In this document: positions 3,553 to 61,813 of the stretch, in pieces | Numbering within the stretch: the stretch's first letter is position 1 | Layout of the letters: every line of letters starts with the position of its first letter | Source: Macrolepiota albuminosa | Taxonomy: Eukaryota > Basidiomycota > Agaricomycetes > Agaricales > Agaricaceae | DNA length: 64,000 bases | Assembly: GCA_027475525.1 (NCBI GenBank) | Contig: JAMWFC010000111.1 | Coordinates: 372,001 to 436,000, forward strand | Direction: 5' to 3' | Position numbers and translations under genes: made by a program | Notes under the pieces: model-generated | Seen by the model: only the letters and a program-made list of their open reading frames with translations | What the model was told of the DNA's origin: nothing | The model's database searches: none

Positions 3553-4534
3553 CGTTCGGGCGCTTCGTTTTATATGGACTATGGGTGACAACCTTGATCT
3601 TTTTGATCTCGCGTTTTGTATGTTTTGATTGGGGTAATTAACGTTGTTGCTAGGATATCGGTACATGTATGCCCGAAAGCTATGTCGCAAAGGTGGAACT
3701 GTGTTTGATCAGATCTCAGCTGGACATCGAATAGACTTAGACGGGGAGCGACAGTAGTGAGTTTGTGACTGAAATCATTCACTATCGTTTTCGTGACACT
3801 GGAAGGATGGATACATTCGACGAAACCCAGAAAAATTGAATAGCCCAGAGCGGAGGCTAGGTAGGCAGTATGATAAAACAGGTGGGTGAGAGCATGAGCA
3901 GGTATGACGGCAGCCTTAATACCAGATAGACCAAAAACCCAGACGTATCGTCGCGGATACGAGGCCGATATACATTGAAGTTTCAGAATGTACGCAACAG
4001 CTATCCTTTGACTTGGTAATTGTCCAAGCTTGCCTCGTCGTCAGCATCATGGACGTTGCTTTGGCTGTAGATGATGACTGAGAACTTATATGCGGACGGG
4101 TCAGCTCGAAGGGGAGATCGAATGGAACCGTGCCCATTAAATATCTTTCTTTTTGCAATCCGAGTTATTCTGAGTTTTGAAAGCAGATGAGGCACCAGTT
4201 GTCATTAATCACAGCATTTCATGATGCTCTATCACTGTTTCACGGTGAGAATTGTGGCCGCGTGAGAAACTTATGAGCTCGCAAATCAATGTTTGATTTC
4301 GTGATCCCGATGGGCACAAGGGGGCGCCGCCCGGATCATGTCTGACCAGACAGCCTCATAACTATTGAAACTTGAGGGGACGTGTAGAAATAACCAAAAT
4401 CATGTCTCTTGACCTGCAGAGAGTGGGATAGTTAGAGCTTAGAGTGATAAGTTTACAGGTAACCTCAGAGCACCTACCATAGCGTGCCAAGTTATGTCAC
4501 GAATATGTGACACTGCATCTCCTGCCTTACCACA
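3553..4534. other. Divergent intergenic region
   Basis: 982 bp between two divergently transcribed genes (tetraspan protein to the left, YKT6 to the right). Only short frames without recognisable motifs occur. It should contain both promoters. Confidence 0.4.
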
Positions 4535-27241: not shown

Positions 27242-27582
27242 TGTAGAAGTACGGTAGTAAGTCCTCAGTCACTCCAAATATATGTTGTTGACTGATTCTA
27301 TTACCTGTAGAAGTACGGTAGTAAGTCTACAGGATGTGGTAAGTCAATCTATAGTACGTGTAGGCAGAAAGAGCTCACCCTCAGTCACTCCAAATATATG
27401 TTGTTGACTGAGGGGTCACGCTTTGTGTATCTAGGTAATCTATCTGAAAATAATTAAGGTTTGCCTGTAAAGCTAGACAAATACCGATCGTGCACCACAC
27501 AGTGGTGCACTGTGAAAAGTGTAATAATAAAATAATAGATAAAATAAAAAACCTTATGTCTCGCTCAAGTCGTTCCTCAACA
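27242..27582 (-). repeat. Copia 3' LTR
   Basis: 341 bp, TG...CA. It contains an internal duplication: the word TGTAGAAGTACGGTAGTAAG occurs at its left end and again about 65 bp on, and a block starting CTCAGTCACTCC and ending TTGTTGACTGA also occurs twice. Confidence 0.95.
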
Positions 27583-27954
27583 CTCCCCCTGACTTGGGTG
27601 AGCGTCAGCTCTCTTCAATCCCATAAGTCCTACGAGATAATTGTGTGTGGCGCGTGGTAGGGGTTTGGTGCAGATGTCCGCTATGTTCTCAGTAGAGGGT
27701 ATATGAATAACTTCAATGTCGCCCTTGGAGACACGTTCACGGATATAGTGATGTCGTATGTTGATATGTTTTGCGCAGGCATGTCCCTTCGTTGATTTTG
27801 CCAAAGCGATCGAGGAGTTGTTGTCAACATGGAGGGTGGCGGGGAGTGGTTGCTCAAAATTGATTTCCGAAAGGAAATTGTGCATCCAGAGGGCCTGTTG
27901 AGATCCCCAGATCATAGACATATACTCGGCTTTGGTGGTTGACAGAGCTACCGT
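27577..27954 (-). pseudogene. Copia RNase H, C-terminal part (split by G1)
   Basis: Encodes the end of the copia polyprotein: VALSTTKAEYM, then HVDNNSSIALAKS, HINIRHHYIRERV and HIPSTENIADICTKPLPR, the classic copia RNase H/C-terminal motifs. The stop overlaps the LTR edge. Its upstream half lies 24.8 kb away at 52743. Joining across one CCGT target copy keeps the frame open (SSKRQQT followed by VALSTT), which shows exactly where G1 inserted. Confidence 0.92.
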
Positions 27955-29074: not shown

Positions 29075-29116
29075 TCTCCCCCCAACTGAAAAATTGACTG
29101 TCCTCAGTCAAACACC
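29075..29116 (-). promoter_or_regulatory. G1 polypurine tract and adjacent hairpin
   Basis: Read on the minus strand, TTGGGGGGAGA abuts the 3' LTR and is the likely plus-strand primer. Next to it is the inverted repeat TTGACTG-TCCT-CAGTCAA. The same arrangement occurs beside the 3' LTRs of G2 (41423-41458) and G3 (59404-59439). Confidence 0.75.
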
Positions 29117-29220: not shown

Positions 29221-30959
29221 ATGTCCACTCCTTTCGATGCCTCTGCTCTTCGCAATTTCCTGGCTAAGGCCTCCTATTTATTCGATCGCGCTAAGTCTGT
29301 CGGTCCTGCCGATGTGCCACAAACCGTCCCTGGCATTATGCAACTCTATTGGCGCTGGCTCATGGTCCGCAGCTCCGACAGTTCCTGGGAGTGGGGTGAC
29401 GAGGTTCGCGAGTGGTGTGTGGCCCGGTACCGTGAGTACAAAGGTGCCGATTGGTTGCGCCCTTTCGTGGACCTTTTCGTAAGTTTCTAAGTTTGATTTT
29501 GGCTTTGTGGCGCTAAGGTTCAGCGCCCATACTAGGCTCCCTCCTTATCCGACAAGATCGACGCGTTGTTGGCTAGTACCGAGGTCAGCAAAGTAAGTCC
29601 TTCCTTTTCTTCCCCCCTTTTTCCACTGTTAATCCTTGAGTAGTCGGTTGCCACGTCTCCCACCGTCGCCAGTCTTCCTACTGCCCCATCGGCCTCTACT
29701 GTCCCTTCTGTTCCTACCGCCCCTCCTTCTTCTCTCCCACCGTCGCCAGTCTTCCTACTGCCCCATCGGCCTCTACTGTCCCTTCTGTTCCTACCGCCCC
29801 TCCTTCTTTGACTTCTGTTCCGCCTCCTTCCGTTCTTGGCAGCCCTTTTCGTGGCGCTGCTTCTTCCACTCGCCCTGCCCCAAGCGCTGCTTCTCCTGTT
29901 CGCACTGCCCCTCCCCATTTGGCCATCAAATGTATTGCCATTTCTCATAGCGAGCCATGACCCGGCCTGGCACGCCCAACTTCCCATGGTCCTCCACGTA
30001 ATTTTGCCATTGTTATTGAACGAGCGCCCCCTGCTCATGCTAGTTCTCCCAAATGTACCGTGCATTCCTCCCCTATCTTCCTTATTCCATTTTTCTGACT
30101 TCTACCCTTCCAGATCAATCTCCCTGCTTGTGTTGCCCCTTTGTATGTTGTAAGTGCTTTGTTCGTTGTCGCTAGACTTTAGCACCTAAATTTTAATGTC
30201 GATAGGCGCCTAACCAGACCATGTTCACCAACGCGGAGCTTCGTGACCTGTTGCGTCTTCACCGTGATACTACCATTATTGATACCGGCATCCTGGCTGG
30301 TGTCCAAGTACTGGGTGCCAAGAAGAAGGTTACCGTTGCGTCCTTGGAACATCGTGCATTTAGGGCAAAGATTGGCACGGTAAGTACTGGTTTGCCCATT
30401 GGTAGGTTGATGCCATCGCTGACTTCTTTCTTAGTGTGACAAGTGTTGGTCTGAGAACAATCCTGAGGGCTGCTGGTTCTCTACCGCCTCTCTGCCTTGC
30501 TATCGGTGCGATGCGTTGAAACAAGGCTGCGCCTTCAACGGGATTCGTACTCGTGAACGTGGTAGGGACGCCATCATGCAAAGGAACTATGAGCGCGCGG
30601 TGTTGGTTCGTAACACCTGGGACTTTGTGTTGCAGCAACGTGATCTGGCAGCTACTCACCAGCCCACATTGATCAGCGCAGCCAGCCTGGCACTGCCGAC
30701 TACCCAGGATGGTACCACCATGGCGGCACCTTTCGCTTGTTCTCCTCGTCGTCCCATTCCTTCAAAACGTAAGCCTGTTGCTGCGTCTCCTGGCAAGAGT
30801 CCTGGTAAGCGCCGCAAGCTAGCGCCTGCTACGCCTGTGGTTTTGTCTTCAACTGAGTCGTCTACGGATGAGGGGGAGGGCACTGAGAGGGATGCCGAGG
30901 GAGAGGATGATGATGAAACTGAGCCTGTCGTTGATTCCGATGCGCTGTTGGCGGTACGC
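29221..30959 (+). pseudogene. G1 antisense accessory gene, 5' part (split by G2)
   Basis: Runs opposite to gag-pol of the same element. A TATAAAA at about 29163 precedes the ATG at 29221. Exons seen: 29221-29478 (86 codons, W-rich: QLYWRWLMVRSS...EVREWCVARY), 29536-29592, a Ser/Pro-rich stretch containing duplication no. 7, 30206-30379 (174 nt) and 30435 onwards. The last one opens with a six-Cys cluster (CDKC, then GC, then PCYRC, then GC: spacing C-x2-C-x8-C-x8-C-x2-C-x6-C), followed by a basic, then acidic low-complexity tail. G2 inserted in this exon at 30959. The remainder is at 42394-43250. Homologous genes with the same exon order lie in G2 and G3. Function unknown; the Cys spacing suggests a Zn2Cys6-like DNA-binding module. 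Confidence 0.8.
29656..29809. repeat. 77-bp tandem duplication no. 7
   Basis: Period 77, with 76 of 77 bases matching (last base C versus T). It lies in a Ser/Pro-rich coding stretch of the G1 accessory gene. Confidence 0.9.
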
Positions 30960-31894
30960 TGATAGGACCCTATACAGGTTAGGCGCATCAACGGCAGGCT
31001 CGGCAACAGCTCCGGAAACCTTGCTGCACTTGTTCCGAACTTGGCGCACGCATTCTACCTATTTTAGGCCATTCCCGACGGCCGGACACGGCAAGAAGCA
31101 GATCCCATCAATGATAGCGCCGACGGCAGCAGGAATGACAACTGACAGATGGCATCAGTCACTGACGACAGCGCTTAGTGAGAAGATTGATGATCTGTCA
31201 AAAACCGACAGACAGCTTGGCGTTTGACCTTGGCGGCTGACATCGCTTAGCGCCACCGATTTGGCGCCTGACACTGCTTAGGTATGTTGATAGACAGAGG
31301 AGGGATGGATTGATGGTTTAGCGTCGCGATCTGCCGCCTGGTGGCGCTAAGGGTCTTGAATGGATGGCAGGGATCTGAAACAGTTGGAGCTACCCCTCAT
31401 AAAATTTTCTAGTTTACCGCTCTTTGGCCACTGGCGACGGCGAACTCTTTGTAGTATAAAAGTACTTACCGACTTGTACAATAGCAACAAGAATCGACCA
31501 GAGTTTCCTGCTCCCACTTCTTTAGTCTCCCTTACGCTCAAAATCTCATTTACGGTCGGCAACGTCGAATTCATCGGCAGTTGCAGACTCTCGCCAATCT
31601 TCGACCTATTTGCGCCTTGCAGCTACGGCAGGCATCAGCGACGCTTAGACTGCGCTAAGCTTACTGTGTCCTTACCGCTTACCTTACCGTGTTTACTTAC
31701 CGCTTCTTCCTAGGCGCTTCGCCTTGGCGCCTTACACTTGCCGACAACCGTTACCGACTTTACACCTTTTTCACAGGTGCGTTCTCTGGGACCTGCCCGG
31801 AACTCCCCCAACACTTATAGCGCGCCCAACGCAAGCCATTGGTACGGTAACACTATAGATATATTTGTTACTGACCAAACTTTGGGCGTCATCA
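30960..31894 (+). repeat. G2 5' LTR
   Basis: 935 bp. A TATA box (TATAAAA, 31455-31461) is a plausible promoter. The primer-binding candidate TTGGAGCCCACCGCGAGG begins two bases after the LTR end. Confidence 0.93.
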
Positions 31895-31920
31895 AATTGG
31901 AGCCCACCGCGAGGGAACTT
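31895..31920 (+). promoter_or_regulatory. G2 primer-binding site
   Basis: TTGGAGCCCACCGCGAGG directly follows the 5' LTR. G1 has the near-identical TTGGAGCCCACCACGAGG at the same place on its minus strand (about 51602-51619). The TGG start fits pairing with a tRNA CCA end. The tRNA is not identified. Confidence 0.7.
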
Positions 31921-31926
31921 TAGGGC

Positions 31927-34653
31927 AGAATTCCGCCAGAAACCCGTCTCCAGCGTAGGCGCCGTCTGCTAGAGCAGTCGGCAGAAGGCTTTGCTCCTTC
32001 CCACCTATCCACTCCACAACCACCTGGGGCCTTACCGGGTCTATCGCTAGCACAGGAACTACAGAACGCCACTGTAGACGAATTCCCTGACCTCTACCCG
32101 CACTCTTTGGATTTTAGCGTGGACGACCTCTTAGCGTCACCGCTTGCCGTACCACAGCCAGTTACTCTGACTACGCCATTAACGCCTCTTTCGCAACTAG
32201 TAATTTCGCTTACCCCGTCGCCAACATCCAGAACCCCTTTCCCACCACCGCTAACCGAACTCAACACTAGAGTCGCCATGGAGCAACCAGTTCAGCGCAT
32301 GCCGCCACGTAACCATTTCTCGGCACCGAAATGGGACGAGTGCAAGCCACGGGAGCTCTCCCAGTATTTCAAGGAATTAGAGTATTTATTCAGAGACTGT
32401 AACGTTACCGACCACACCCAGATGAAAGAATATGCGGCAAGGTACGTGTCCTACGACACGGCAGAAACTTGGACAGGTCTTTCCGAGTTTGCAGCACTCG
32501 TTCCCGCCACACCGACAGCTCCCGCCCGAGGCGCTTCATACGAGGATTGGAAAACGGCAGTGATTCAGTTGTACCCTGGCGCTGAGGAAGCTACCTGCTA
32601 CTCGGTAAACGAGCTGCAGAAGCTTGTGCATGAATCTTTTGACAACGGCACATCGTCTCTTGGCGCCTTCTCCACGTATTACCGCGAATTCCAAAAGATC
32701 GCTAAGTGGTTGGTGCACAACGGCAAGCTCTATATCAACGAAGAACGTCGCCTATTCCAACAAGGCATTCAAAGATCGCTAAGTGGTTGGTGCACAACGG
32801 CAAGCTCTATATCAACGAAGAACGTCGCCTATTCCAACAAGGCATTCCGACCTTGCTTTGGACTCGCATCGCCCGTCGCTTAGAAATAGTCCATCAGGAC
32901 CACCACCCAGACGAGCCATACAACGTTGCCGACGTCTTTGAAGCCGGTAAGTGGGTTCTCAAGGGGACGGACACTGGTGTTGGACTGCAACGCGCTAGGA
33001 CGAGCCCACCCCCTGAGCGCCCTAACGGTATCCTTCCCATCCCGCCTCCCGCTGCCGACTTCGTCAAGAAGGAGGACCTCAACGCTGCCGTTACTGCTGC
33101 CGTCGCCTCCGCTATGACTCGTATCGAAACGATGATTACCACCAACCTCGCTTCTAACCGACCCGCTAACGTACCTGCGCCAGGCCCCTGCCACTTTTGT
33201 GGGGAAATTGGCCACACCATGACTCGAGGACGCTGCGCTACCCTCAAAAACTATATTCGGCAAGGAAGAATTAGAAGGGCTATCGACGGCAAGATCATTC
33301 TTACCTCTGGCGCCACCATCCCCAACTACCTGGACAAGAAGTCCTTCCAGGAGCGAGTTGATGAATGGCACAGGCGCAACCCAGGACAAATCGTTACCGG
33401 CACGCTTTCTGGCAACGCCAACCCCGACCCTGAACAGGCAGCGCAACAGCAGCTGATCCACGAGGTCTTACACTTTGACAGCGTTGGCGACCATCCCACT
33501 TTCTCACGGGAAGAGCGTATCGCCAAGCTACAACAGGAGCTGGATTCGCTTAAGAATCAGGTCTTTGATGGTGTTGAAGTTAAGCAGCCTAAGCAACCTC
33601 TGAAAGGATACAAGCCAATGTCTGCCGCTAACAAACTACCGACTTCTGCTCCAGCCGCCCCGCCAGCCACTACACCAGAACCATCGTCGTCCGCTGCCGC
33701 TCCCGAACCGCCTTTGCCGCCCCTCCATCCCTATTCAGGGATTCCCGACCGCTATCACGCACCCGCACAACGAAATTTTGCCGCTCCCGAGAAGCGTCCT
33801 GAAGGCGGTTACCGACCTACCGCGCCAATTTTCGACATCGAAAAATCAAACCACGTCTTCAGCCGCATTATGAAAACCGCCGTTACCTTGTCGGTAGAAG
33901 AACTTTGTAGTATCGCTCCCGACGTCCGCAACCAAGTCAAGACCGCTGTTACTCCTCGACGTCCCTTGGCGACAACCGTTGCCGAGGTCGGGGACCTCGA
34001 CGACGCCCTACCAGGTTTTTCCGTTACCATCGACTCTCTGGACAATAATGACACTCCTGCCGACACTATCGCTAACGCCACCTCTGTGGACCCAGTGGAG
34101 ACCTATCTTAGGTCAGTCGACCACGGTGAAGACCCCGCCATCCTTACCGTCGCTCAAGAATCGCACGCTATCCGTTCCGTAGCGCTAACCGTCGACAACA
34201 AGCACGAGGTAGAGGCTATAGTGGATAGCGGCTCCCAAATTATCTCTATGGCAGCCGACGTCGCTAACGATTTGGGTCTCATTTATGACCCTACCGTCAT
34301 TCTAAACATGCAGAGCGCTAACGGTACAGTTGACAGATCCTTGGGCCTCGCCAAGAACGTGCCCTGCACCCTTGGCGACATCACTTTCTACTTACAGATC
34401 CACATTTTACGCTCCCCCGCATATGATTTACTACTCGGCAGACCCTTCGATGTCTTGGCGCGATCAGTCATCAAGACCGTTACTGACGACAAGACGACTT
34501 TGACGATTAGCGACCCTAATTCCGGAATCCGACGAACGGTGCCGACGTTCCCTAGGGGACAATAAAAAGGCGCCCGCGCTAAGCCCCCAGAGTTTACCGA
34601 CCAGCACGCTAACGAGCCTCCACACTGGTGTTTTCACAGACCATCGAGGAGGT
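31927..34653 (+). CDS. G2 gag-protease frame
   Basis: One frame opens after a stop conserved in G1 and G2 just behind the primer site. The first conserved ATG is 32278 (MEQ...MPPRNHF). Gag is followed by a zinc knuckle CHFCGEIGHTMTRGRC (near 33190), unusual in its spacing after the His. An aspartic protease follows with VDSGSQIISMAADVA (near 34215) and LLLGRPFDVLARS. Duplication no. 8 (32694-32847) shifts the frame as assembled; with it collapsed, the frame is continuous. A premature TAA (34563, CAA in origin judging by G1) lies just before the end, and the homologous frame ends at a TGA (34653). RT is in the -1 frame (see findings). Confidence 0.85.
32694..32847. repeat. 77-bp exact tandem duplication no. 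8
   Basis: Copies 32694-32770 and 32771-32847 are identical, inside the G2 gag. The homologous gag in G1 has one copy. Confidence 0.95.
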
Positions 34654-34780
34654 GATTGGCGACGATCACGGAGATGTGGCGCTAACGCTGGAATATGACC
34701 ACCGGTGTTTTCACAGACCATCGAGGAGGTGATTGGCGACGATCACGGAGATGTGGCGCTAACGCTGGAATATGACCACC
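34627..34780. repeat. 77-bp exact tandem duplication no. 9
   Basis: Copies 34627-34703 and 34704-34780 are identical, at the protease/RT junction of G2. G1 has one copy at this junction. Confidence 0.95.
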
Positions 34781-37700
34781 ATACTGGTCTTGTAAATATA
34801 ATATCTACCACTTGTTTGGACGATGAAGTTTTACTTTCCTCTACCGCTACCGACGCTGAGCTTTACCAGGAAAACCCAGATATTACCGACTCTGCTCTAG
34901 CGTACTTATACCTTACCGCTTCCGAACCATTTCAAAATTTTGCGTCTACCGATACCTATCTCACCACTCTTCCCGGAGCATTGTCTCCTGTCGTTCTTGG
35001 ACTTGCCGCTCCTCAGGCTACAGTTCCCCTTTCCACCTCTGTATATAACCAGGCTAACGCTCCCAAAAGGAAAGGGGTACAAGTCAAAAAGAAATATAAG
35101 CCAGTTGCGCTTAAAACAAAACCAATTGCTACGCACTCTCCCGAGACGTTTAGGATCGAGTGCCAGATCATTGGCGACCTTCTTGCCAACCTACCTACTT
35201 TGTCACCGAATCCGCCACCCTTTCAGCCCACGGGACGTTTTACCGCAGAGCGCCAACAGCAGTTCGCCAAGGACCACGACACAGGATTTTTGACTAAAGA
35301 TGAGTTAAACGTCCTTACCGATCTCGTCGCTAAGCAGGATAAAGCCTTCGCCTAGGAAGACTCAGAACGCGGCAGTCTACGTACAGATTTCTTCCCACCT
35401 GTCATCATCCCGACCATTCCGCACGTGCCGTGGACTGAGCACAACCGACCGTTACCGCCTGGGATCGAAGCCGAGGTCTGCCAGATTATTAGGACCAAGA
35501 TTAAGGCTGGCGTCTATGAACCCTCCAATAGTTCTTACTGCTCCCGCTGGTTCTGCGTCCTCAAAAAGAATGGCAATCTACGCATAGTTCACAGTCTCGA
35601 GCCGCTAAATAGAGTTACAATACGACACTCTGGCGTGCCGCCTTTCCCTGACCACGTTGCCGAGTCCTTTGCCGGGCGCATTTGTGGCGCCACCCTTGAC
35701 CTTTACGTTGGCTACGATGAGCGCTTGATTCACCCTTCTTCCCGCGACCTCACTACGTTTCAAACTCCGTTTGGCGCACTGCGCCTAGTCACCTTGCCGA
35801 TGGGCTGGACAAACTCAGTCCCTATATTCCATGACAACATCACTTTCATCCTCCAACCCGAGATACCGCATAACGTCCTTAGCTTCATCGACGACGTTGG
35901 CGTCAAAGGCCCCAAAGACTGGCGACTCGTGAACGGCTTACCGGCGACCCATCCCGACAACTCCAACATTCGCTTAGCGCTATGGGACTTTTTCCAGTTG
36001 CTCAACCGAGTGCTCCAGCGTATGAAGTATAGCGGTGGGACTTTTAGCGGTCACAAACTCCTCCTTTGCGCACCAAGGTTCAAAATACTTGGTCACATAT
36101 GCACTCCCGATGGTCGCGTTCCCGACGAATCTCGCCTAGCACTCTTGGAGTGCTGGGGGCCTTGCCGCGACTTATCCGAAGTTCGCGCATTTCTCGGTAC
36201 CGTTGGCGTTCTCAGGATATTTGTCAAGAACTTTGCCCATCGCGCACATGCCCTTAACCGACTCACCCGCGCTAACGAGCCCTTTGAATTTGGGCCAGAC
36301 CAGGTCACTGCGCAGCGAGACTTAGTAAAAGCTCTGCAGGACGCCAAGCCCCTAGTTCCCATCGATTATACCTCTGCCGACCCAGTTATCTTGGCGGTGG
36401 ATACCTCGTACATTGCCGTTGGCTACTTCTTGTGCCAGTGCCTTAGCGACAACAGGAAACAGCGACGCTACAACCGCTTTGGGTCTATCACGCTAAACGA
36501 CAGAGAGTCTCGCTACAGTCAGCCTAAGCTAGAGCTCTATGGACTCTTCAAGGCTTTCCGAGCGCTAAAGATGTATTTGATTGGCGTACGGAACCTTATT
36601 GTTGAAGTCGACGCTAGGTACATCAAAGGCATGCTGCAGAATCCCGACATCCAGCCATCTGCTAGTATGAACCGGTGGGTAGTTGCTATCCTCATGTTTC
36701 ACTTTGAGCTGGTTCATGTCAAGAGCTCTTTCCACGGACCCGATGGACTCTCTAGGTGACCACGGCAGCCTGGCGACCCGGTAGTGGACCCACAGGCGGA
36801 TAGCGATTTCGAGGACTGGATCGACCGCTTACACGGATTTGTGCACCTAATACAACAGCCAATACACCTCCTACGACAGCAACAGCCTACTAGTATTCTT
36901 CTACATCCCATTGTCCCTTACCGTCCCGAGACCTTTAGCGCACCCCTCACATTCTACACGGCAAGCATTTTTGGTCACGACGCACCCCCAGTAAAAATTG
37001 TACAAGAACCTCACCCGCTAAGAGAAGGCAGCAAAAACCTGACCTACGATGCCGTTCCCCAATCCGCCAAGGCCAAGGCAGAAGACAGTCGTCTGTTAAT
37101 AGTTGAACAATGGGTACAAGACCTTAAGCGACCTGCAGGCCTTACCGACGAACAGTTCGCGACTTTCATCCGATACGCTACCCGGTTCTTCTTTACCGAC
37201 AACCGACTTTGGCGACGGAATTGCGATGGCGCTCACAAACTGATTATCAAGCCAGAAAGTCGCTTACGGGTCCTTCACGCCATGCATGATGAGCTAGGGC
37301 ATAGAGGTTTGTACGCTATCCGAGCTTCTCTGTTAGAACGATTCTGGTGGCCACACGCTAGCGCCGACATCGCCTGGTACATCAGGACTTGCCACCTCTG
37401 CCAAATTCAACAAACGCGCCAAGTGCTCATACCGCCAACCGTTGCAACGCCAGCTCCCCTTTTCAGCAAAATCTACGTCGACACCATGCATATGCCAAAG
37501 TCTGGTCGCTACAAGTATATCATTCAAGGTCGTTGCTCGCTAATCCATTGGCCTGAATTTCGAATGCTTCAGAGAGAAAATACCGAAGCGGTCGCCAAGT
37601 GGCTGTTTGAAGACGTCATCTGCCGTTGGGGCGCGCTAAGAGAAATTGTTACAGATAACGGTGCGCCAATTATCAAAGCGCTAACCTATCTCGCCAAGAA

Positions 37701-38454
37701 GTACAATATCCATCACATCCGCATATCGGGCTACAACAAACGCGCCAATGGCCTGGTAGAGAGACCGCACTTTGACGTTCGGCAAGCGCTCTTCAAGGCA
37801 GTCGATGGCGACGAGTCGCGTTGGAGTGAGGCGACATATTCAGTATTCTGGTCAGAAAGAGTTACCATCCATAAGCGCATGGGTTGTTCTCCCTATTACG
37901 CGGCTACTGGCACCCATCCTTTACTCCCTGCCGACATTATAGAAGCGACCTACCTCCAGCCAGCCCCTAATAGTATCTTAGCGACTACTGACCTGATCGC
38001 CAGACGAGCAATTGACCTCCAACGACGGAAAGAAGATTTGGAGCAACTTCATGAAGTAGTCTTTAGCGCCCGTCGCCAAGCAGCCCTACGATTCGAAACC
38101 GAGCATGGCGCTACTATCAAGGACTACAACTTCCCGAGAGGAGCGCTAGTACTTATGCGCAACTCCAAAATCGAGACCTCCTACAACAAGAAAATGCGCC
38201 CGCGCTATCTAGGACCTTTGGTAGTTATCTCTCGTAACCGTGGAGGCGCTTACGTGCTCTGTGAATTAGATGGTTCAGTACTACATCGACCTGTTGCCGC
38301 CTTTTGCCTATTGCCATATCTCGCCAGAGAACACATTGACTTGCCAATGGAAGCGCTAGATATCGACACCGCCAAGTTAAGAGAACTTGAAGAAACAGAA
38401 TTATTGGACGATGATGACTTGCCGACTCTAGTAGAAGAAGAAGAAAACGATTAG
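34705..38454 (+). pseudogene. G2 reverse transcriptase-RNase H-integrase, two premature stops
   Basis: One reading frame with premature stops TAG at 35353 (Trp codon in G1) and TGA at 36757 (Arg codon in G3). RT shows the palm motif FIDD (35884-35895), with F where most gypsy elements have Y, preceded by LVTLPMGWTNSV. RNase H follows (VILAVDTSYIAVGYFL). Integrase has the zinc module HDELGHRG...CHLC, the core residues in KIYVDTMHMP, VTDNGAP and ANGLVERPH, and the C-terminal GPLVVISRNRGGAYVLCELD module. It ends with an acidic tail at 38454. Both stops are C-to-T or G-to-A changes, so the element was recently intact but now needs help for mobility. Confidence 0.9.
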
Positions 38455-38877: not shown

Positions 38878-41289
38878 TTAATCGCTGTCGTCGTCCATCG
38901 GCAAGGAGTTGTCCGACCCTGGTAAGGAAGAGTCGCGAAGTGGTAGGAGGTCGCCAGGCTGGATGTCGTTGGCGGTTTGCCAATCCATGGCGGCTTGGCA
39001 ATCGCCTTGGTAATCGTGAAGAACGTGAAGACTGCGACCCAAGTTAGAGTAGCGAAGGCGGAGCGCCATAAGCTGCCCCCGGACTCGCTCCCGTTCTCGC
39101 TCCATTGCCGCCTCCATCGTTGCCGCCCTCCTGGCAAACCTCTCCAGCATCTCCTGCGGGTTGAGGGCCACCACTGGATAAACGAGGTCTTGCCCCAGCC
39201 AGTTGAAGGCGTCGCCAGTGACCGTCGGTTGCGGCTGGGGAGTCCAGGCTGGATTGACCCTGGCGACCACAGGGCGCCGCGGTTCCAGTCCGGCAACGTC
39301 CTCGGGGTCTGAGACCTCCCAAGGGGCGACGTTGCCGTAAGGCGGTAGCCAGCGCCAGGCTGGCTCCTCTCGAGCAACTTCTGCCGCTCCCGGCCCTTCG
39401 CCTGCCACCACCTCGTCGCCTTCCTGTTGCGTCGCCAGGGTCTCTTCTTCACCCTTGGCGTCCTCATCTCCTCCCGCTACGGCTCCCTCTGCCTTCTCCT
39501 TGTCCTCCATCTCCACGTCTGCAGGGGCCTCTTCCCGCTCCTCTTGTGGCACCAAGTCGCCAACTTCCTCCCGCTCTCCCACCTCCTCCTCCTCGCCAAG
39601 GGACCTCGCCGCCAAGTGGATAGGCGATAAGAGGCCACTTGGGCCTGCCTCGGGATCTTGAGGGGGCAGGCGACTCGCCGCTAACGACTTCTCCAAGTCT
39701 TCCATCTCGGTGTCGCGAGGGGCTGGCGAGGGGGAAGGCGAAGAAACCACCCGAGGTCGCTTGGCCTTGCCCTTCCCCTTGCTTGGGGAAGGGGCTGGCC
39801 TTTTCTCTGGGACCGAAGTCCCTTGGCGGTCACCAGCGCCTCGATTGCCGACTGTTTCCGTCCCATCTCCTTGGCGTGTCGGCAACGCCAAGGAGGCACG
39901 TCCAATAACTGCCATACCACCGGCAGCGACCTTCCTCTTTTGCCCCTCCACGAACTCCCTGGCCCTCCTCACCAGAACCGCGCGCGAAAAAGTCTTTTCA
40001 ACCAGGGCATCTGGCGCGCCGCCACGCTCGCGACTTTTTGCCCCGTCAATGGTGCAAGCACGTTTTAGAGCGCCACAACGATAACATGGCTGGGCCCCAG
40101 TCGGGAACCAACAGCCTTCTGGGTCGTTATCTGCCCAGCACTTGTCACACTAGCGCAAAAAGTCAATAAAAGAATGAAGGCAAGAGACAAGTCGCTTACC
40201 GCCCCCCGAGCCTCTTTAAATGCCTGCCGGGTCGCCAAGGAAACGGTTTTCTTCCCCTTCATCTCCTCCATAACAACCCCGGCCTCCTGCCCCTCGTCAA
40301 GGACGGCCTCCTCGCGACGCGGCAAGAGCAGTCCCTTCAGCTCTGTGTCGTCAAAGCTAGACTGCGTGGGTGCCTAGACAAATCACGGTAAATAAAAATA
40401 ATCAGACTTCCAAAAGACCGCTTACCACATACTGGGGAGCTTTTCCCTTGCGAGACTTGGAAACAGTGGTTAGCGCGGCACGGCAGCGGCAAGAATAGGC
40501 CAAAACTCACCTTCTTCAAAGCCTTTCCCGGCTTTAGTGGGGAGCCCTTCCTGCTAGCCGGCAGTGCTGGGCTCTGTGCACTGCCGGCGCGACCACCCTT
40601 GCCGGATCCCTCTGCTACCGCCTGCCTCTCGGCGGCAGGCACCCTCCCTGCGGCAACCTCCTCCATCTCTGCGGCCAACGCGGCAACCCGCTCTCGCTCC
40701 TCTAGCGCCCTGGTGATCTCGCGGGCGTCTTGAGAAGCCTCCTCCTGCCTTGCCGCGATCTCCTCCTCGACCTGCATGCGCGCTAGGGGCGCCAGCACCT
40801 CCTGCTTACTATGGGGTGACAAGTCAGACCAAAGCTAAGTCAAAAGAATGGGTTAGAGATACTTACTCAGGCGCAGGCGCGCTTACCGTCATCGGCAAGG
40901 CACCCGACAAGATATCCTCCAACTCGTCCTCGATGGTAGGGACGGGAGGAGGCGCCTAGGGACCCAATCAGTTGGCGACACGGCAAGGACTTGAAAGCAC
41001 TTACAAAACGAGAAAATGGCGCTAACCACTCCGCGCCACGGTTATCCACATAGCGGGCCCGGCACCACTTCCGCACCTCAATCTCGCAATCCCACCCAAC
41101 ACCAAGGACCCGCATCTCATACCAACGCTCCAGTAATCGCATAACAGCAACAACCAAGTTTGTAGGCGCCTCCGCGCCCACACCCTCGATGCGCTTGATG
41201 AAATTGTTCGCCTTAGCGATGTAGGCGGAGGCAGCGTCTTGAGCCTCGCGGGACGGTACTGGAGGCGGAGTTGGAATTCGAAAAGACAT
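38878..41289 (-). CDS. G2 antisense accessory gene: Zn2Cys6-like protein, intact
   Basis: Six exons, all joins phase 0: 41289-41005, 40955-40887, 40834-40511, 40455-40426, 40373-40200 and 40149-38878, giving 717 aa with no internal stop. N-terminal domain: MSFRIPTPPPVPS, then VVAVMRLLERWYEMRVLG and EVRKWCRARYVDNRGAEWL. Next come an Ala/Glu-rich, probably coiled segment and a basic stretch. The 174-nt exon includes FDDTELKGLLLPRRE. The last exon starts with six cysteines in C-x2-C-x8-C-x8-C-x2-C-x6-C spacing, close to fungal Zn2Cys6 clusters. Then a Lys/Arg-Pro patch (nuclear-signal-like), a long acidic region, WLPPYG, and a C-terminal domain with LMALRLRYSNLGRSL and DWQTANDIQPGDLLPL. Transcribed against pol, towards the pol 3' end. 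Not a known gypsy protein. A regulatory or DNA-binding role is inferred only from the Cys pattern. Confidence 0.85.
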
Positions 41290-41422
41290 ATTTTTTTAAT
41301 GGAGCGCCAGGTAAAGATGTGGAGGAGAGACGAAGTCCAAACTCATGCGCCAGGACTATAAACCAAATCTCAAGAACGCACGGGCCACATGTCACAAAAA
41401 CGGTAACGGTAGCCTTATTTGG

Positions 41423-41458
41423 TGACTGAGGACAGTCAATTTTTCAGTTGGGGGGAGA
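41423..41458 (+). promoter_or_regulatory. G2 hairpin and polypurine tract
   Basis: TGACTG-AGGA-CAGTCA inverted repeat followed by CAGTTGGGGGGAGA immediately before the 3' LTR. Conserved in G1 and G3. Confidence 0.75.
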
Positions 41459-42393
41459 TGATAGGACCCTATACAGGTTAGGCGCATCAACGGCAGGCTC
41501 GGCAACGGCTCCGGAAACCTTGCCGCACTTGTTCCGAACTTGGCGCACGCATTCTACCTATTTTAGGCCATTCCCGATGGCCGGACACGGCAAGAAGCAG
41601 ATCCCATCAATGATAGCGCCGACGGCAGCAGGAATGACAACTGACAGATGGCATCAGTCACTGACGACAGCGCTTAGCGAGAAGATTGATGATCTGTCAA
41701 AAACCGACAGACAGCTTGGCATTTGACCTTGGCGGCTGACATCGCTTAGCACCACCGATTTGGCGCCTGACACTGCTTAGGTATGTTGATAGACAGAGGA
41801 GGGATGGATTGATGGTTTAGCGTCGCGATCTGCCGCCTGGTGGCGCTAAGGGTCTTGAATGGACGGCAGGGATCTGAAACAGTTGGAGCTACCCCTCATA
41901 AAATTTTCTAGTTTACCGCTCTTTGGCCACTGGCGACGGCGAACTCTTTGTAGTATAAAAGTACTTACCGACTTGTACAATAGCAACAAGAATCGACCAG
42001 AGTTTCCTGCTCCCACTTCTTTAGTCTCCCTTACGCTCAAAATCTCATTTACGGTCGGCAACGTCGAATTCATCGGCAGTTGCAGACTCTCGCCAATCTT
42101 CGACCTATTCGCGCCTTGCAGCTACGGCAGGCATCAGCGACGCTTAGACTGCGCTAAGCTTACTGTGTCCTTACCGCTTACCTTACCGTGTTTACTTACC
42201 GCTTCTTCCTAGGCGCTTCGCCTTGGCGCCTTACACTTGCCGACAACCGTTACCGACTTTACACCTTTTTCACAGGCACGTTCTCTGGGACCTGCCCGGA
42301 ACTCCCCCAACACTTATAGCGCGCCCAACGCAAGCCATTGGTACGGTAACACTATAGATATATTTGTTACTGACCAAACTTTGGGCGTCATCA
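41459..42393 (+). repeat. G2 3' LTR
   Basis: 935 bp, the same length as the 5' LTR, with about 10 transitions between the two. TATA box at 41954-41960. The G1 sequence resumes at 42394 with the ACGC target copy. Confidence 0.95.
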
Positions 42394-43250
42394 ACGCGCT
42401 CTCCTGCTTCGCCTTACTCTCCCTATCGCCGCTAACCCTTGTCAGAGTGGCCCCAGTGGTAACCAGTACGCGTTCTCCTATCCTCTTTTTCCTGCGTGCT
42501 AACTTCTTGACTGGTAGGTCCCCCACTCCTGTTCCTGCCATAGTGGCTATCCCTGCTGCCGAAGATGTCATTATGTCTGTCGTTGGCGCTACCCCTGCCC
42601 CTGAGCCGGCTGCGGCTAGTGACACTCCTGTTGCTCTTCCTATTACTCTGTCCCTTACTCCTCCCCACAGCTTCTCCTCTTTTCTTAGTAGTCGCAAGAC
42701 TTCTACGGCGCCGGAGTCTGAAGGAACCCTGGTGCCAGAAGGTGAGCGTCGTCGCCGCTGGAGGTACTTGCCTCCCTATGGCATCCATCTTTCTTCCGCT
42801 AGAGCTATGTCCCCTGGCAACGAGCGCCATGAGTGGACACCCCGTGCGCCTGTAACTGTCCAGGTACGTCCATCTTTGTTCGTGCCCTTTTCTCCCCTTT
42901 TCTAATCTCCCGGTAAGTTCGATCCCTTTTGGACGCCCCCTCCCGCCATGCGAGTTTCTGGCGACGCCTTCCCTTGGCTCGGGGACGAGTTCTCCTATCC
43001 CGTTACTCCCCTCTGTCCCTCTGCCGACCTTCGCCAGCAACTTTGCCATATTGAGGATGCGACCGAAGTTGCTGGTCGCGAACTTGCCAACCTGCGTCCT
43101 TGTGTTTCCACCTTAGCTTGCCGCGAGCGCCTTCTGCTCGGGCTCCATGACAATATTACAGATGCGCTTGAGTGGCAAGCGAGTAATGCGATCCAGGACG
43201 GGGACTTGCTTCCTTTAGGTGATCCCGCCCTTCCCGAGTATGATCCGTAG
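42394..43250 (+). pseudogene. G1 antisense accessory gene, 3' part
   Basis: Continues the gene begun at 29221. After one ACGC copy the frame stays open to a donor at 42466. A 52-nt intron (branch-like GCTAAC, acceptor at 42517) leads to exon 42518-42863 (SPTPVPAIV ... WRYLPPYG), then a 54-nt intron and last exon 42918-43250 (SGDAFPWLGDEFSYPV ... LEWQASNAIQDGDLLPLGD, stop at 43248). The matching of WxYLPPYG, GDAFxWLG and DxxxWQxxNxIQxGDLLPL with G2 and G3 identifies the domain. Confidence 0.82.
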
Positions 43251-56762: not shown

Positions 56763-57103
56763 TGTAGAAGTACAGTAGTAAGTCCTCAGTCACTCCAAAT
56801 ATATGTTGTTGACTAATTCTATTACCTGTAGAAGTACGGTAGTAAGTCTACAGGATGTGGTAAGTCAATATATAGTACGTGTAGGCAGAAAGAGCTCACC
56901 CTCAGTCACTCTAAATATATGTTGTTGACTGAGGGGTCACGCTTTGTATATCTAGGTAATCTATCTGAAAATAATTAAGGTTTGCCTGTAAAGCTAGACA
57001 AATACCGATCGTGCACCACACAGTGGTGCACTGTGAAAAGTGTAATAATAAAATAATAGATAAAATAAAAAACCTTATGTCTTGCTCAAGTTGTTCCTCA
57101 ACA
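56763..57103 (-). repeat. Copia 5' LTR
   Basis: 341 bp, partner of 27242-27582. Compared with that copy it is TA-richer at CpG sites (for example ACGGTA versus ACAGTA, TCGCTC versus TTGCTC). Confidence 0.95.
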
Positions 57104-58434
57104 CCATTGTATAAAGGATCATAGTTATCATTCTTGTACCTTAGTATTGATATTGCTAAATACTATCTCATTTTCTCTGTTCTCTTTGTGTGCCCCATTG
57201 TAAATATTTGTCTGGCATGCATTTTGCAACTTTAAAATACTAACCTCAGTCTCATCTAGGACTCCCTCCTTGACTTGACTTCAACTTACTTACTCAGCCT
57301 GTTCATTCTAACCCTGGAGCAAGTTGTTTAACCTCAGAGCAAGTTGTTCAGCCTCAGAGCAAGTTGTTCAACTCCAGATTTGCCCCTTTCTGCCATCTCA
57401 AGTCCTGTAGTATATCTCAGAGCACCAGACACCTCAAGTACATGTAGTTCAGCACTTGAGTCCACATTGTAAGGGCATTGCTTTATTAGAAAGGCCTCTG
57501 GATCAGTAGAACCTAACAATAATTTTCAATTATAAACATGTATTTGCATTGGTGTTAGTATTTTTTGTAGCTGGTATTAAAATAGAGATTAATATATATG
57601 GAATATTGATGTTCAATTTTAAAAATGTACATAGTCCAATGAGGTATTAGCATTACTATTGCTATTCAAAATACAAAACAGATTAAGCAGGGGCTTTTGT
57701 CTAGTTAGGAGAACTCAGGAGTGTTTTTGAGGGGGTCAGGGCTTGAAAAGAGGTTATGATTAAAAAAAGCCTAATGGAGAAGGAAGTTGATGTGTCCAGT
57801 GATCCAGTGATCAGATGTCCTAGAATGTGATCCAATGATCTGTCATGGCTGTTGGCAGGGCCAAGAGAGTTGGAGCAGTAGAAAAGAGCTGAGAGGACAG
57901 ATAAAGGATAGGTCATTGTAAGGGGACATTCTATTGTGAAAAGCCAAGCAGATGTATCAACCACTCAAGCCCACCACCAAGGGGAGTGAGCATCAAGCAA
58001 GCACAGTAACAAGCAGCTGGCAGACAAGGAGCAAAGCAGGAGAGTGAAGACAGATGGCAAGGTCATCACTGGAGAAGCTCACAGTTATGCTAGTGTGTAG
58101 ACCCAGAAGGCTATTGCCAGGACTGAGGATGTTTCATCCATCAGTCCTACTTATATACTACATCAGACACACTATGACTATGACATATTGACTAATAGGG
58201 CCAGTATGTACTAAGCACTAATAAGTAAGCAACAATCAGCATGAGTAAGCCAGTCAATAGCATAAAGGCCTGCTGGCAAGTAGAGTGGGTCTAAAGACCA
58301 GCTGACCTGTCTGATGTCAATGCCAAGACAGGAATGGAGCAGGATAGAGCTGAGAGGTTCAGATGGTGGCTAGATAGGGGTGCCAACATCAACACAGACT
58401 AAGCAGGGCTAGGGTGGATAATCCAAGAACCTGG
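57104..58434. other. CpG-free tract, right half
   Basis: 1331 bp without a single CG dinucleotide by eye. Continues 26563-27241 across the copia insertion. No open gene. Contains a short tandem repeat (57314-57378) and ends at the G3 LTR (presumed 4-bp target copy CTGG at 58431-58434). Confidence 0.75.
57314..57378. repeat. About 20-bp tandem repeat, three units
   Basis: The word GAGCAAGTTGTT occurs three times at about 20-21 bp spacing, separated by YAACCTCA or CAGCCTCA. Confidence 0.8.
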
Positions 58435-59403: not shown

Positions 59404-59439
59404 TCTCCCCCCAACTGAAAAATTGACTGTCCTCAGTCA
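59404..59439 (-). promoter_or_regulatory. G3 polypurine tract and hairpin
   Basis: TCTCCCCCCAACTG, then TTGACTG-TCCT-CAGTCA on the plus strand; the reverse-strand copy of the G2 arrangement. Confidence 0.75.
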
Positions 59440-59572: not shown

Positions 59573-61813
59573 ATGTCCTTCCGTATTCCAACTCCGCCCC
59601 CCGTTCCATCTCAGGCTGCTCAAGAAGCCGCCTACGCATACATCGCCAAGGCGAACCGTTTTATTTGTCATATCAAGGGTGTTGGCGCCGAGGCGTCCCA
59701 AAATCTTGTGGTTGGCGTGATGAAGTTATTGGAGCGATGGTATGAGGTGAGAGTCCTTGGCGTTGGGTGGGATCACAAAATCAAGGTGCAGGAGTGGTGC
59801 CGTGCCTGGTATGTCGACAATCGTGGCGCTGAGTGGTTGGTGCCTTTTTCCTGCTTCATAAGTTGTCTTTGCTGCCTAGTGTGTCGCTTAGCTGATTGCT
59901 CTCTAGGCGCCTCCCCCAGTCCCTACCATCGAAGATGAGCTGGAGGACATTCTTTCTGGCGCGTTGCTGATGACCGTAAGCGCATCGGCAACCGAGTGAG
60001 TATCTCCTGACCTTTCCTTCTCTAGCTATGGACTGAACTATCCCCCCGTAGCAAGCAAGAGGTACTGGAGCCCCTTGCTCGATTGCAAATCGAGCAAGAA
60101 CAGGAGGAGGCTGCCGCTGCCGCTGCCGCACACTCCTTGGCGGTGGCAAGGGCAGAGCTCGCCAAGGAGCAAAAGAAGGAGTCCGTTGCCGAGGGTTCCA
60201 GCAAGGGGTCTCGCGCCGGCAGTGTACAGAGCCCAACACTGCCGGCTAGCAGGAAGGGCTCCCCAGTAAAGCCGGGTAAGGCTTTGAAGAAAGTGAGTTT
60301 TTAACTTTTCTTGCCGCTGCCGTGCCACGCCAACCACTGTTTCCAAGTCTTGTAAGGGAAAGGCCCCCCAATACGCGGTAAGTGTTCTTTCAGACCTAGG
60401 TGATGTCTACCAACCTATGTCTGCAGGCGCCAACGCAGACTACCTTTACCGATTCTGAATTGAAGAGTCTGCTGGTGCCGCAACGGGAAGACGCCGTTCT
60501 TGACGAGGGGATGGAAGCGGGAGTGGTCTTGCCCGAGATAAAGAATAAGAAGACTGTTGGCCTTGCGGCAAGGCAGGAATTTAAGGATTCCCAGGGGGCG
60601 GTAAGCTTAGCGCCTTTTCTGTTACCGTGTTTGCTGACTTAGGTACTAGTGCGACAAATGCTGGGCTGACAACGATCCAGAGGGGTGCTGGTACCCTACT
60701 GGCGGTCAGCCCTGCTATTGATGCGGAACCCTTAAACGCGCATGTACTCTGGATGGCGCCAAGAGTCGCGAGCGCAGGGGAGCTCCCGACGTGGTAGTGG
60801 AGTGCACCTTTAAGCGTGCCATCTTAGTCAAGAGAGCGTGAGAGTTTGTTGAGGGAGAGAAGAAGAAGAAGGCCGCTGGAGACGCGGCAGCAATCAGCAA
60901 AAGTTTCCTGGCGCTGCCGACGCGTCAAGGGGACGAGAACAAAACAGTCGGCAACTGTGGCGCTGGTAAGCGCCAAGAAAAACGCAAGGCCCCCTCTCCA
61001 GGCAAGGGCAAGGGTAAGGCCAAGCGAGTACGCATCGAGTCGCCCCCCTCCTCTCCAACTGCTGAGGATACGGAGATGAGGGAGCTTGGAGAAGCCCTTG
61101 CCGCCAGCCGCCTCCCTCCCGTTAGCGGTGAGGCTGGTCCCAGTCGCCTATTGTCCCCTCTCATCTTGCCTGAAAACGCGCCCGTCGACGTTTCGACTAC
61201 TGGCGCCCCAGGCAATGAAGGTGACGTTGTGATGGGAGAGCCCGCTGGTGCACAGGAGATAGCTGGGGAGGAGGAGACTCGGGAAGCATCGCCAAGCCGC
61301 AAGGAGGAAGAGGGCGGTAATGAGGATGCCGAGGGGGAATTGGAGGAGACTTTGCGAGACGTTCCTGGCGAGTCCCAGGAATTGCCGACGGTGGAGCCTG
61401 CCGCCCCCTGGATGAGCGAGGGCGACTTAGCGACGCAGCTCTGGACGAGCTCGAGTGGGCCTTCTTCGTGGACCCCCCAGCCTCAGCCAAGAGTCACTGG
61501 TGACTCGTACGAGTGGCTGGGGGAGGACTTGGTTTATCCCGTGGTGGCCCTGTATCCTCCTCAGGTTATCAAGCAGCTGGAAGCACGTGCGGCAAGTATG
61601 CATGCGGTACTGGGTCGCGAGCGCAAATGCGCTCGGCAACAAATCATGGCCTTGCGACTCCGGTACTCCAATCTAACCCGCAGTATGGAGACCCTCGAGG
61701 AATACCAAGCCGACTGTCACGAGGCACTAGAGTGGCAAGCCCTCAACCACGTTCAAGTTGGCGATCTCCTACCCTTTGACGACTCCCTGCCGCTTACCGA
61801 TAGCGAAGATTGA
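59573..61813 (+). pseudogene. G3 antisense accessory gene, decaying copy
   Basis: Same six-exon plan as G2: 59573-59857 (285 nt), 59907-59975 (69 nt), 60026-60292, 60348-60377 (30 nt), 60427-60600 (174 nt) and 60650-61813. Exons 1, 2, 4 and 5 have exactly the G2 lengths. Damage: the first donor reads ATAAGT instead of GTAAGT (59858), and TGA codons replace Arg at 60719 (inside the Cys cluster) and at 60838. All three are G-to-A or C-to-T changes. The six cysteines, the WLGEDLVYPVVAL segment and the C-terminal EWQALNHVQVGDLLPF are kept. Confidence 0.85.

Follow-up and report, generated by a model that had tools for sequence, protein, structure and literature searches.

A gypsy-type long terminal repeat (LTR) retrotransposon of the fungus Macrolepiota albuminosa, here called element A, carries a six-exon antisense accessory gene that has splice signals, codes for protein and is kept by selection, and that belongs to a large gypsy lineage in which its constraint is almost that of the integrase. 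The element lies, with two further gypsy elements (B and C), in a stretch of 64,000 nucleotides of contig JAMWFC010000111.1, hereafter the window, whose numbering is used throughout. What the gene product does can be proposed only tentatively: it may be a regulator of the element that acts as a nuclear, nucleic-acid-binding dimer, most plausibly at a palindrome next to the 3′ LTR. A first-pass annotation, made from the sequence alone, had described a spliced gene opposite gag-pol, between pol and the 3′ LTR, and in element A this is borne out with exact coordinates: the ATG is at 41289 and the stop codon ends at 38878 on the reverse strand, enclosing 715 codons plus the stop, and all introns have GT..AG borders. 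The features of element A are as follows.

30960-31895, forward strand: 5′ LTR, about 98.5% identical to the 3′ LTR
31924..38454, forward strand: gag-pol, with protease, reverse transcriptase, RNase H and integrase zinc-binding domain (Pfam domains)
38878..41289, reverse strand: accessory gene, 715 amino acids
41289-41005, reverse strand: exon 1
40955-40867, reverse strand: exon 2
40808-40511, reverse strand: exon 3
40455-40426, reverse strand: exon 4
40200..40373, reverse strand: exon 5, 174 nt (as in all 26 aligned copies), phase 0, 58 amino acids
40149-38878, reverse strand: exon 6
40054..40149, reverse strand: six-Cys module C-x2-C-x8-C-x8-C-x2-C-x6-C at the start of exon 6 (codons 293-330; ratio of nonsynonymous to synonymous divergence, dN/dS, 0.022)
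41356..41362, reverse strand: TATA-like TTTATAG, 73 bases before the ATG (by sequence resemblance only)
41423..41465, forward (sense) strand: 43-bp block made of the palindrome TGACTG-AGGA-CAGTCA, a T-rich stretch, the polypurine tract and the first bases of the 3′ LTR
41459..42394, forward strand: 3′ LTR

The gene family is large, to judge from the first-look candidates in searches of the genome (100.1 Mb, 129 contigs), which numbered 628 for the gene at the DNA level (40 scored, 48 matches listed) and 2370 and 2118 for protein searches with two Termitomyces relatives (70 and 76 scored), all these counts being lower bounds whose unscored candidates may contain chance matches. Copies were gathered with the accessory gene as bait. 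Among A-type loci with flanks, picked by their similarity to the element A gene, an integrase lies on the opposite strand and downstream of the gene in 20 of 20 (several in more than one frame), and an LTR lies upstream in 19 of 20 (one a 126-base piece only); the three B-type loci likewise have an opposite-strand integrase, which brings the count to 23 of 23 loci tested. The suggestion that the gene is encoded by the element and linked with gypsy pol and LTRs is thereby upheld, the loci tested sitting in elements and not mainly at non-transposon sites.

From 31 fetched A-type loci (L011-L041), 24 were aligned with the genes of A and C to give a set of 26 copies; the seven others were element A itself (L011), five taken to be near-duplicates because their search scores were equal (L016, L017, L024, L027 and L028) and a locus without the 5′ part (L041). 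Across this set the splice donors are GT in 129 of 130 cases and the acceptors AG in all 130, exon 2 (89 nt) and exon 5 are constant in length in all 26 copies, and exon 3 occurs in six lengths, all congruent modulo 3. Exon 1 measures 285 nt in 22 copies, the rest comprising one with its 5′ part unmatched, two with 77 additional nucleotides and one of 276 nt; seven copies use a 27-nt exon 4, and the length of the last exon is divisible by three in 23, the exceptions being C, a copy with a large deletion and one with 77 additional nucleotides. Indels in exons thus mostly keep the frame. The reading frame stays open for 690 codons or more in 15 of the 26 (with exon 4 corrected; in one of them the end is altered by a 77-nt duplication), and the six-Cys spacing is readable in frame in 23, including C, which has an internal stop.

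Purifying selection on the protein, which the first-pass annotation had argued from the conserved exon lengths, is strong. It was measured in 21 copies (210 pairs, of which the 207 at most 97% identical were used throughout), leaving out L013, L020, L021, L022 and L040 for deletion, truncation or 77-nt duplication; the pairs are not independent, since copies share ancestry, the splicing was anchored on A, with exon 4 uncorrected in the seven copies that use the 27-nt form, and the decayed copies kept in the set raise dN/dS. Over the whole gene, mean dN is 0.093 and mean dS 0.747, a ratio of 0.125. The ratio falls to 0.022 in the Cys module (dN below dS in 180 of 207 pairs) and is 0.100 in the C-terminal domain (193 of 207), 0.086 in exon 5, 0.102 in the N-terminal 95 residues, 0.161 in the low-complexity stretch and 0.171 in the linker; in both pair counts the remaining pairs may include undefined or zero rates. 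Nucleotide identity is 82.5% in exons, 75.0% in introns and 91.4% in the 250 bases upstream, of which 81 in element A are LTR. Over the same 34 pairs the accessory gene has a dN/dS of 0.094 against 0.074 for the integrase, a comparison that rests on the measurable pairs among the 36 formed by nine copies with an uninterrupted 564-residue integrase alignment and a gene alignment, three of them with internal stops. In the B type (the window's B against copy L042), dN is far below dS in exons 1 and 5 and in the first part of exon 6.

Elements B and C have homologues of the gene at the corresponding position. Their features, and those of the surrounding copia element, are these.

29095..29110, forward strand: element B palindrome, exact
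29221..30946, forward strand: first part of the antisense gene in element B, with exon 1 (29221-29478), exon 5 (30206-30379) and exon 6 from 30435
42395..43250, forward strand: element B antisense gene, remainder past the insertion of element A, with the C-terminal domain
59424..59439, forward strand: element C palindrome, exact
59573..61813, forward strand: decayed antisense gene in element C, with two in-frame stops and AT at the first donor
60427-60600, forward strand: element C exon 5, 174 nt
27242-27583 and 56763-57104: copia LTRs flanking element B (copia domains found)

The pol genes of the A and B lineages are only about 68% identical in DNA, and the proteins of their antisense genes align over the last exon (44% identity over 163 residues, E 8e-35) and over the 174-nt exon (37% over 57 residues, E 1e-10); these E-values, together with the strong purifying selection, put the homology above chance. 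That all three elements carry the gene accordingly stands as a statement of homology, and the phase-0 exon of 174 nt is indeed shared by all three; as a statement of function it does not, only A being open throughout. The gene of B is split by the insertion of element A, and that of C has its first stop between the fourth and fifth Cys, inside the module whose spacing A and B keep uninterrupted, and a second stop further on. The stops and lost donor of the C gene might reflect C-to-T decay.

The window also records nested insertions between 27242 and 57104, with gypsy A inside the antisense gene of gypsy B and B inside a copia element. The gag-pol of A is broken by two in-frame stops (35353-35355 and 36757-36759) and two 77-nt tandem duplications, yet its antisense gene is open; the pol of B is interrupted at a different place from that of A. 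Exact 77-nt tandem duplications occur eleven times in the window (at 472, 5251, 6540, 22037, 23305, 28572, 32694, 34627, 47630, 48399 and 51733), no exact tandem duplication of 60, 75, 76, 78, 79 or 90 nt was found there, and 77 additional nucleotides recur in exons of the copies L020, L022 and L040. They look like an assembly artefact, an uncollapsed k-mer overlap that breaks reading frames.

Searches among 5.8 billion proteins gave 22, 54 and 34 matches, two of the three covering only candidates that shared most words, and every match is a “hypothetical protein” of a Termitomyces strain. From these matches the host would probably belong to Termitomyces or stand close to it. One database gene model from Termitomyces J132 (P0057) joins the copia-type domains PF14223 and PF22936 to the accessory protein, perhaps through annotation fusion of nested elements. 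Across 23 sequences the invariant or near-invariant columns centre on the Cys module. An AlphaFold 2 model of a near full-length relative (P0001, from 48 sequences) has five helices in residues 6-104 and a 63-residue C-terminal helix (542-604), mostly at a predicted local distance difference test score (pLDDT) of about 90, and leaves 338 of 625 residues, the Cys region among them, below 50; a model of the central region of another relative (P0062, 55 sequences) adds a confident helix at 122-149, just after a Cys module whose fold is not confident. Foldseek gave no match at E≤0.001, and VIA-align Z scores were only middling. The overall layout, a helical domain followed by the Cys module, a basic stretch, an acidic stretch and a long helix, would suit a dimeric nuclear protein that binds nucleic acid.

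The cluster had been likened to the Zn2Cys6 (Gal4-type) clusters of fungal transcription factors, with which it has in common six Cys in two CxxC-led halves and, elsewhere in the protein, a basic stretch, a coiled coil and an acidic region. Zn2Cys6 clusters are spaced C-x2-C-x6-C-x5-12-C-x2-C-x6-8-C, whereas the first loop of the accessory protein is x8 in the 23 of 26 copies with a module readable in frame and in the relatives with a complete module. The Pfam Zn-cluster was not matched at E≤10 by the full protein, exon 6, the 48 family members or six Cys fragments, in a scan whose HMMER filters drop most matches above about 0.1. With the fold not confident either, and the Cys pLDDT mostly under 50, membership of this class is not supported.

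The 43-bp block beside the gene reads, on the gene strand, CCTATCATCTCCCCCCAACTGAAAAATTGACTGTCCTCAGTCA, and does not differ by a base among A, B and the B-type copy L042, whose upstream regions can otherwise be aligned only patchily; element B carries TTATAAAA upstream of its ATG. Genome-wide, the 17-base core of the block occurs 642 times and its 20-base polypurine part 544 times (control 0 for both), and the palindrome arms with any 4-base spacer are found at 767 sites against 36 in the control. On the contigs with a complete core listing (C1-C43), the core lies upstream on the same strand, within at most 1600 bases, at 20 of the 22 gene loci among the matches listed (positions transcribed by hand), against a chance of about 0.005 per locus. 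The exact palindrome occurs three times in the window, once per gypsy element, with a fourth site at 3766 that has one mismatch, and in 24 of the 26 aligned copies; TTTATAG starts 72-74 bases before the ATG in 25 of them. The palindrome stands at a fixed spacing from the polypurine tract and the LTR edge, but A and B differ in how far it lies from the ATG.

How these parts might work together can be set out as follows. Transcription would start at a promoter belonging to the gene itself, located between the 3′ LTR and the ATG, where the TATA-like box and the conserved upstream region lie. The introns are spared in retrotransposition, as the mechanism of that process implies, since the genomic RNA holds only their complement, which is not read as intron. 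The protein would reside in the nucleus as a dimer held by the C-terminal helix, would bind nucleic acid through the six-Cys module, presumably with zinc, and the basic stretch that follows it, and would use its acidic region together with the helical domain at its N terminus to regulate the element; its likeliest site of action would be the palindrome, which is joined to the polypurine tract and lies beside the gene’s own promoter. Of the roles considered we tentatively prefer this one, for which the selection, the kept splice borders, the linkage to elements, the conserved upstream region with its block and palindrome, and the modelled helices speak, along with two precedents, the reportedly nuclear GENE23 of Grande with its own promoter (PMC7264820) and the TRP28 of Retand, which is said to be a probable DNA-binding protein (PMC11963269). 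Several points weigh against it. Pfam, NCBIfam and the PDB yielded no significant relation and no match to a characterised DNA-binding domain, and the Cys module is without a confident fold in both models, its pLDDT being mostly below 50. Moreover, the palindrome is outside the LTR, and hence cannot act directly at the 5′ LTR promoter, and its fixed spacing to tract and LTR, with a varying distance to the ATG, means that it may instead be a signal for reverse transcription or the complementary DNA (cDNA). It is quite possible, in particular, that the palindrome is a plus-strand priming signal, a hairpin by the polypurine tract and not the binding site of the protein, an explanation that concerns the block only and is compatible with any reading of the protein. 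The rigidity of the block, with its LTR edge, polypurine tract and T-rich stretch, and the 6-bp hairpin possible on either strand speak for such a signal; the predicted fold, little more stable than shuffled sequences (z -1.08, 30 of 200 shuffles as good), speaks against it. A bolder form of the regulator proposal, in which a new zinc-cluster-like dimer binds the palindrome as its operator, so that antisense expression, the completion of the cDNA and integration are all coupled at a single site, seems to us rather unlikely.

Other roles for the gene fare variously on the same evidence. The protein could be a targeting or nuclear-import factor that travels together with the cDNA-integrase complex, loading at the palindrome beside the 3′ LTR and touching host chromatin through its N-terminal helical domain, an alternative that we regard as doubtful but worth keeping in view: it suits the fixed spacing of the palindrome, the near-integrase constraint and the lack of a chromodomain match in the integrase reading frame (in a Pfam scan of limited sensitivity, since it also missed the integrase core), but a separate antisense mRNA does not by itself put the protein in the particle, and the contact with integrase is hypothetical. 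Improbable, too, is a protein that shields the element by suppressing host silencing, whether this works by RNA interference or by DNA methylation: rapid evolution is usual for proteins caught in an arms race, whereas this gene has the low dN/dS given above, and the structural match is within the tool’s stated noise for helical models. As to a recently captured host gene merely carried along, or a host family unrelated to transposition, the introns and gene-like upstream region would fit, yet the gene lies opposite an element integrase at every locus tested (the A-type loci having been chosen by similarity to the element A gene) and both the A and B lineages carry it despite the divergence of their pol genes, so that we hold this to be most improbable. 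Least credible is that the functional product is the antisense transcript, acting as double-stranded RNA or by interference over pol, with an incidental reading frame. The antisense position fits, and such a role is discussed for other elements (PMC7264820, in the part of the article available); against it, divergence at synonymous sites runs about eight times as fast as at nonsynonymous sites, indels in the exons are mostly in frame, and the exons are better conserved than the introns. The transcript as sole role is thus contradicted, and an additional role for it may exist.

Antisense genes of this kind are already known in plant elements and in Boty, according to the portions of two articles available to us, to which the statements cited here are limited. 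The aORF-3R group comprises antisense accessory open reading frames (ORFs) between pol and the 3′ LTR in maize Grande (GENE23), rice RIRE2, Silene Retand and Phaseolus PvRetro13, which are present in most copies of a family and show conservation similar to that of the elements' remaining proteins; for GENE23 of Grande, a nuclear protein and a promoter of its own are reported (PMC7264820). The M. albuminosa gene agrees with them in position, orientation and pol-like conservation, and differs in host kingdom and in its six-Cys module and five-intron structure, neither of which figures in the available part of their description; at the sequence level the comparison was made only through Pfam. The Boty element of Botrytis and Sclerotinia, mentioned in the same article (PMC7264820), is closer in being fungal and in having its antisense ORF at the same place, a likeness by description only; the protein searches gave Termitomyces alone, with which distant homology to Boty is still compatible. 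Antisense TRP28 ORFs, whose product probably binds DNA, occur in 97% of recent Retand clusters (PMC11963269), and neither the accessory protein nor the 48 family members scanned matched Transposase_28 (PF04195) in Pfam. HBZ of human T-cell leukaemia virus (HTLV) is likewise an antisense regulatory protein of a reverse-transcribing element (PMC11963269), although it belongs to a retrovirus of another host kingdom and is likened here by kind and not by sequence. Neither this protein family, with its Cys module and five introns, nor the attached 43-bp block was described in the literature searched.

The roles of LTR-retrotransposon antisense accessory genes are described as undetermined, and attention to antisense and spliced transcripts has been urged (PMC7264820, in the part available). 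The gene described here illustrates one way for a retroelement to keep introns, namely on the strand other than that of the genomic RNA. It also offers a fungal case with many copies and selection near that on integrase, in which the Cys module is compact and invariant and a cis-site can be proposed; together these make the role of antisense accessory genes directly testable.
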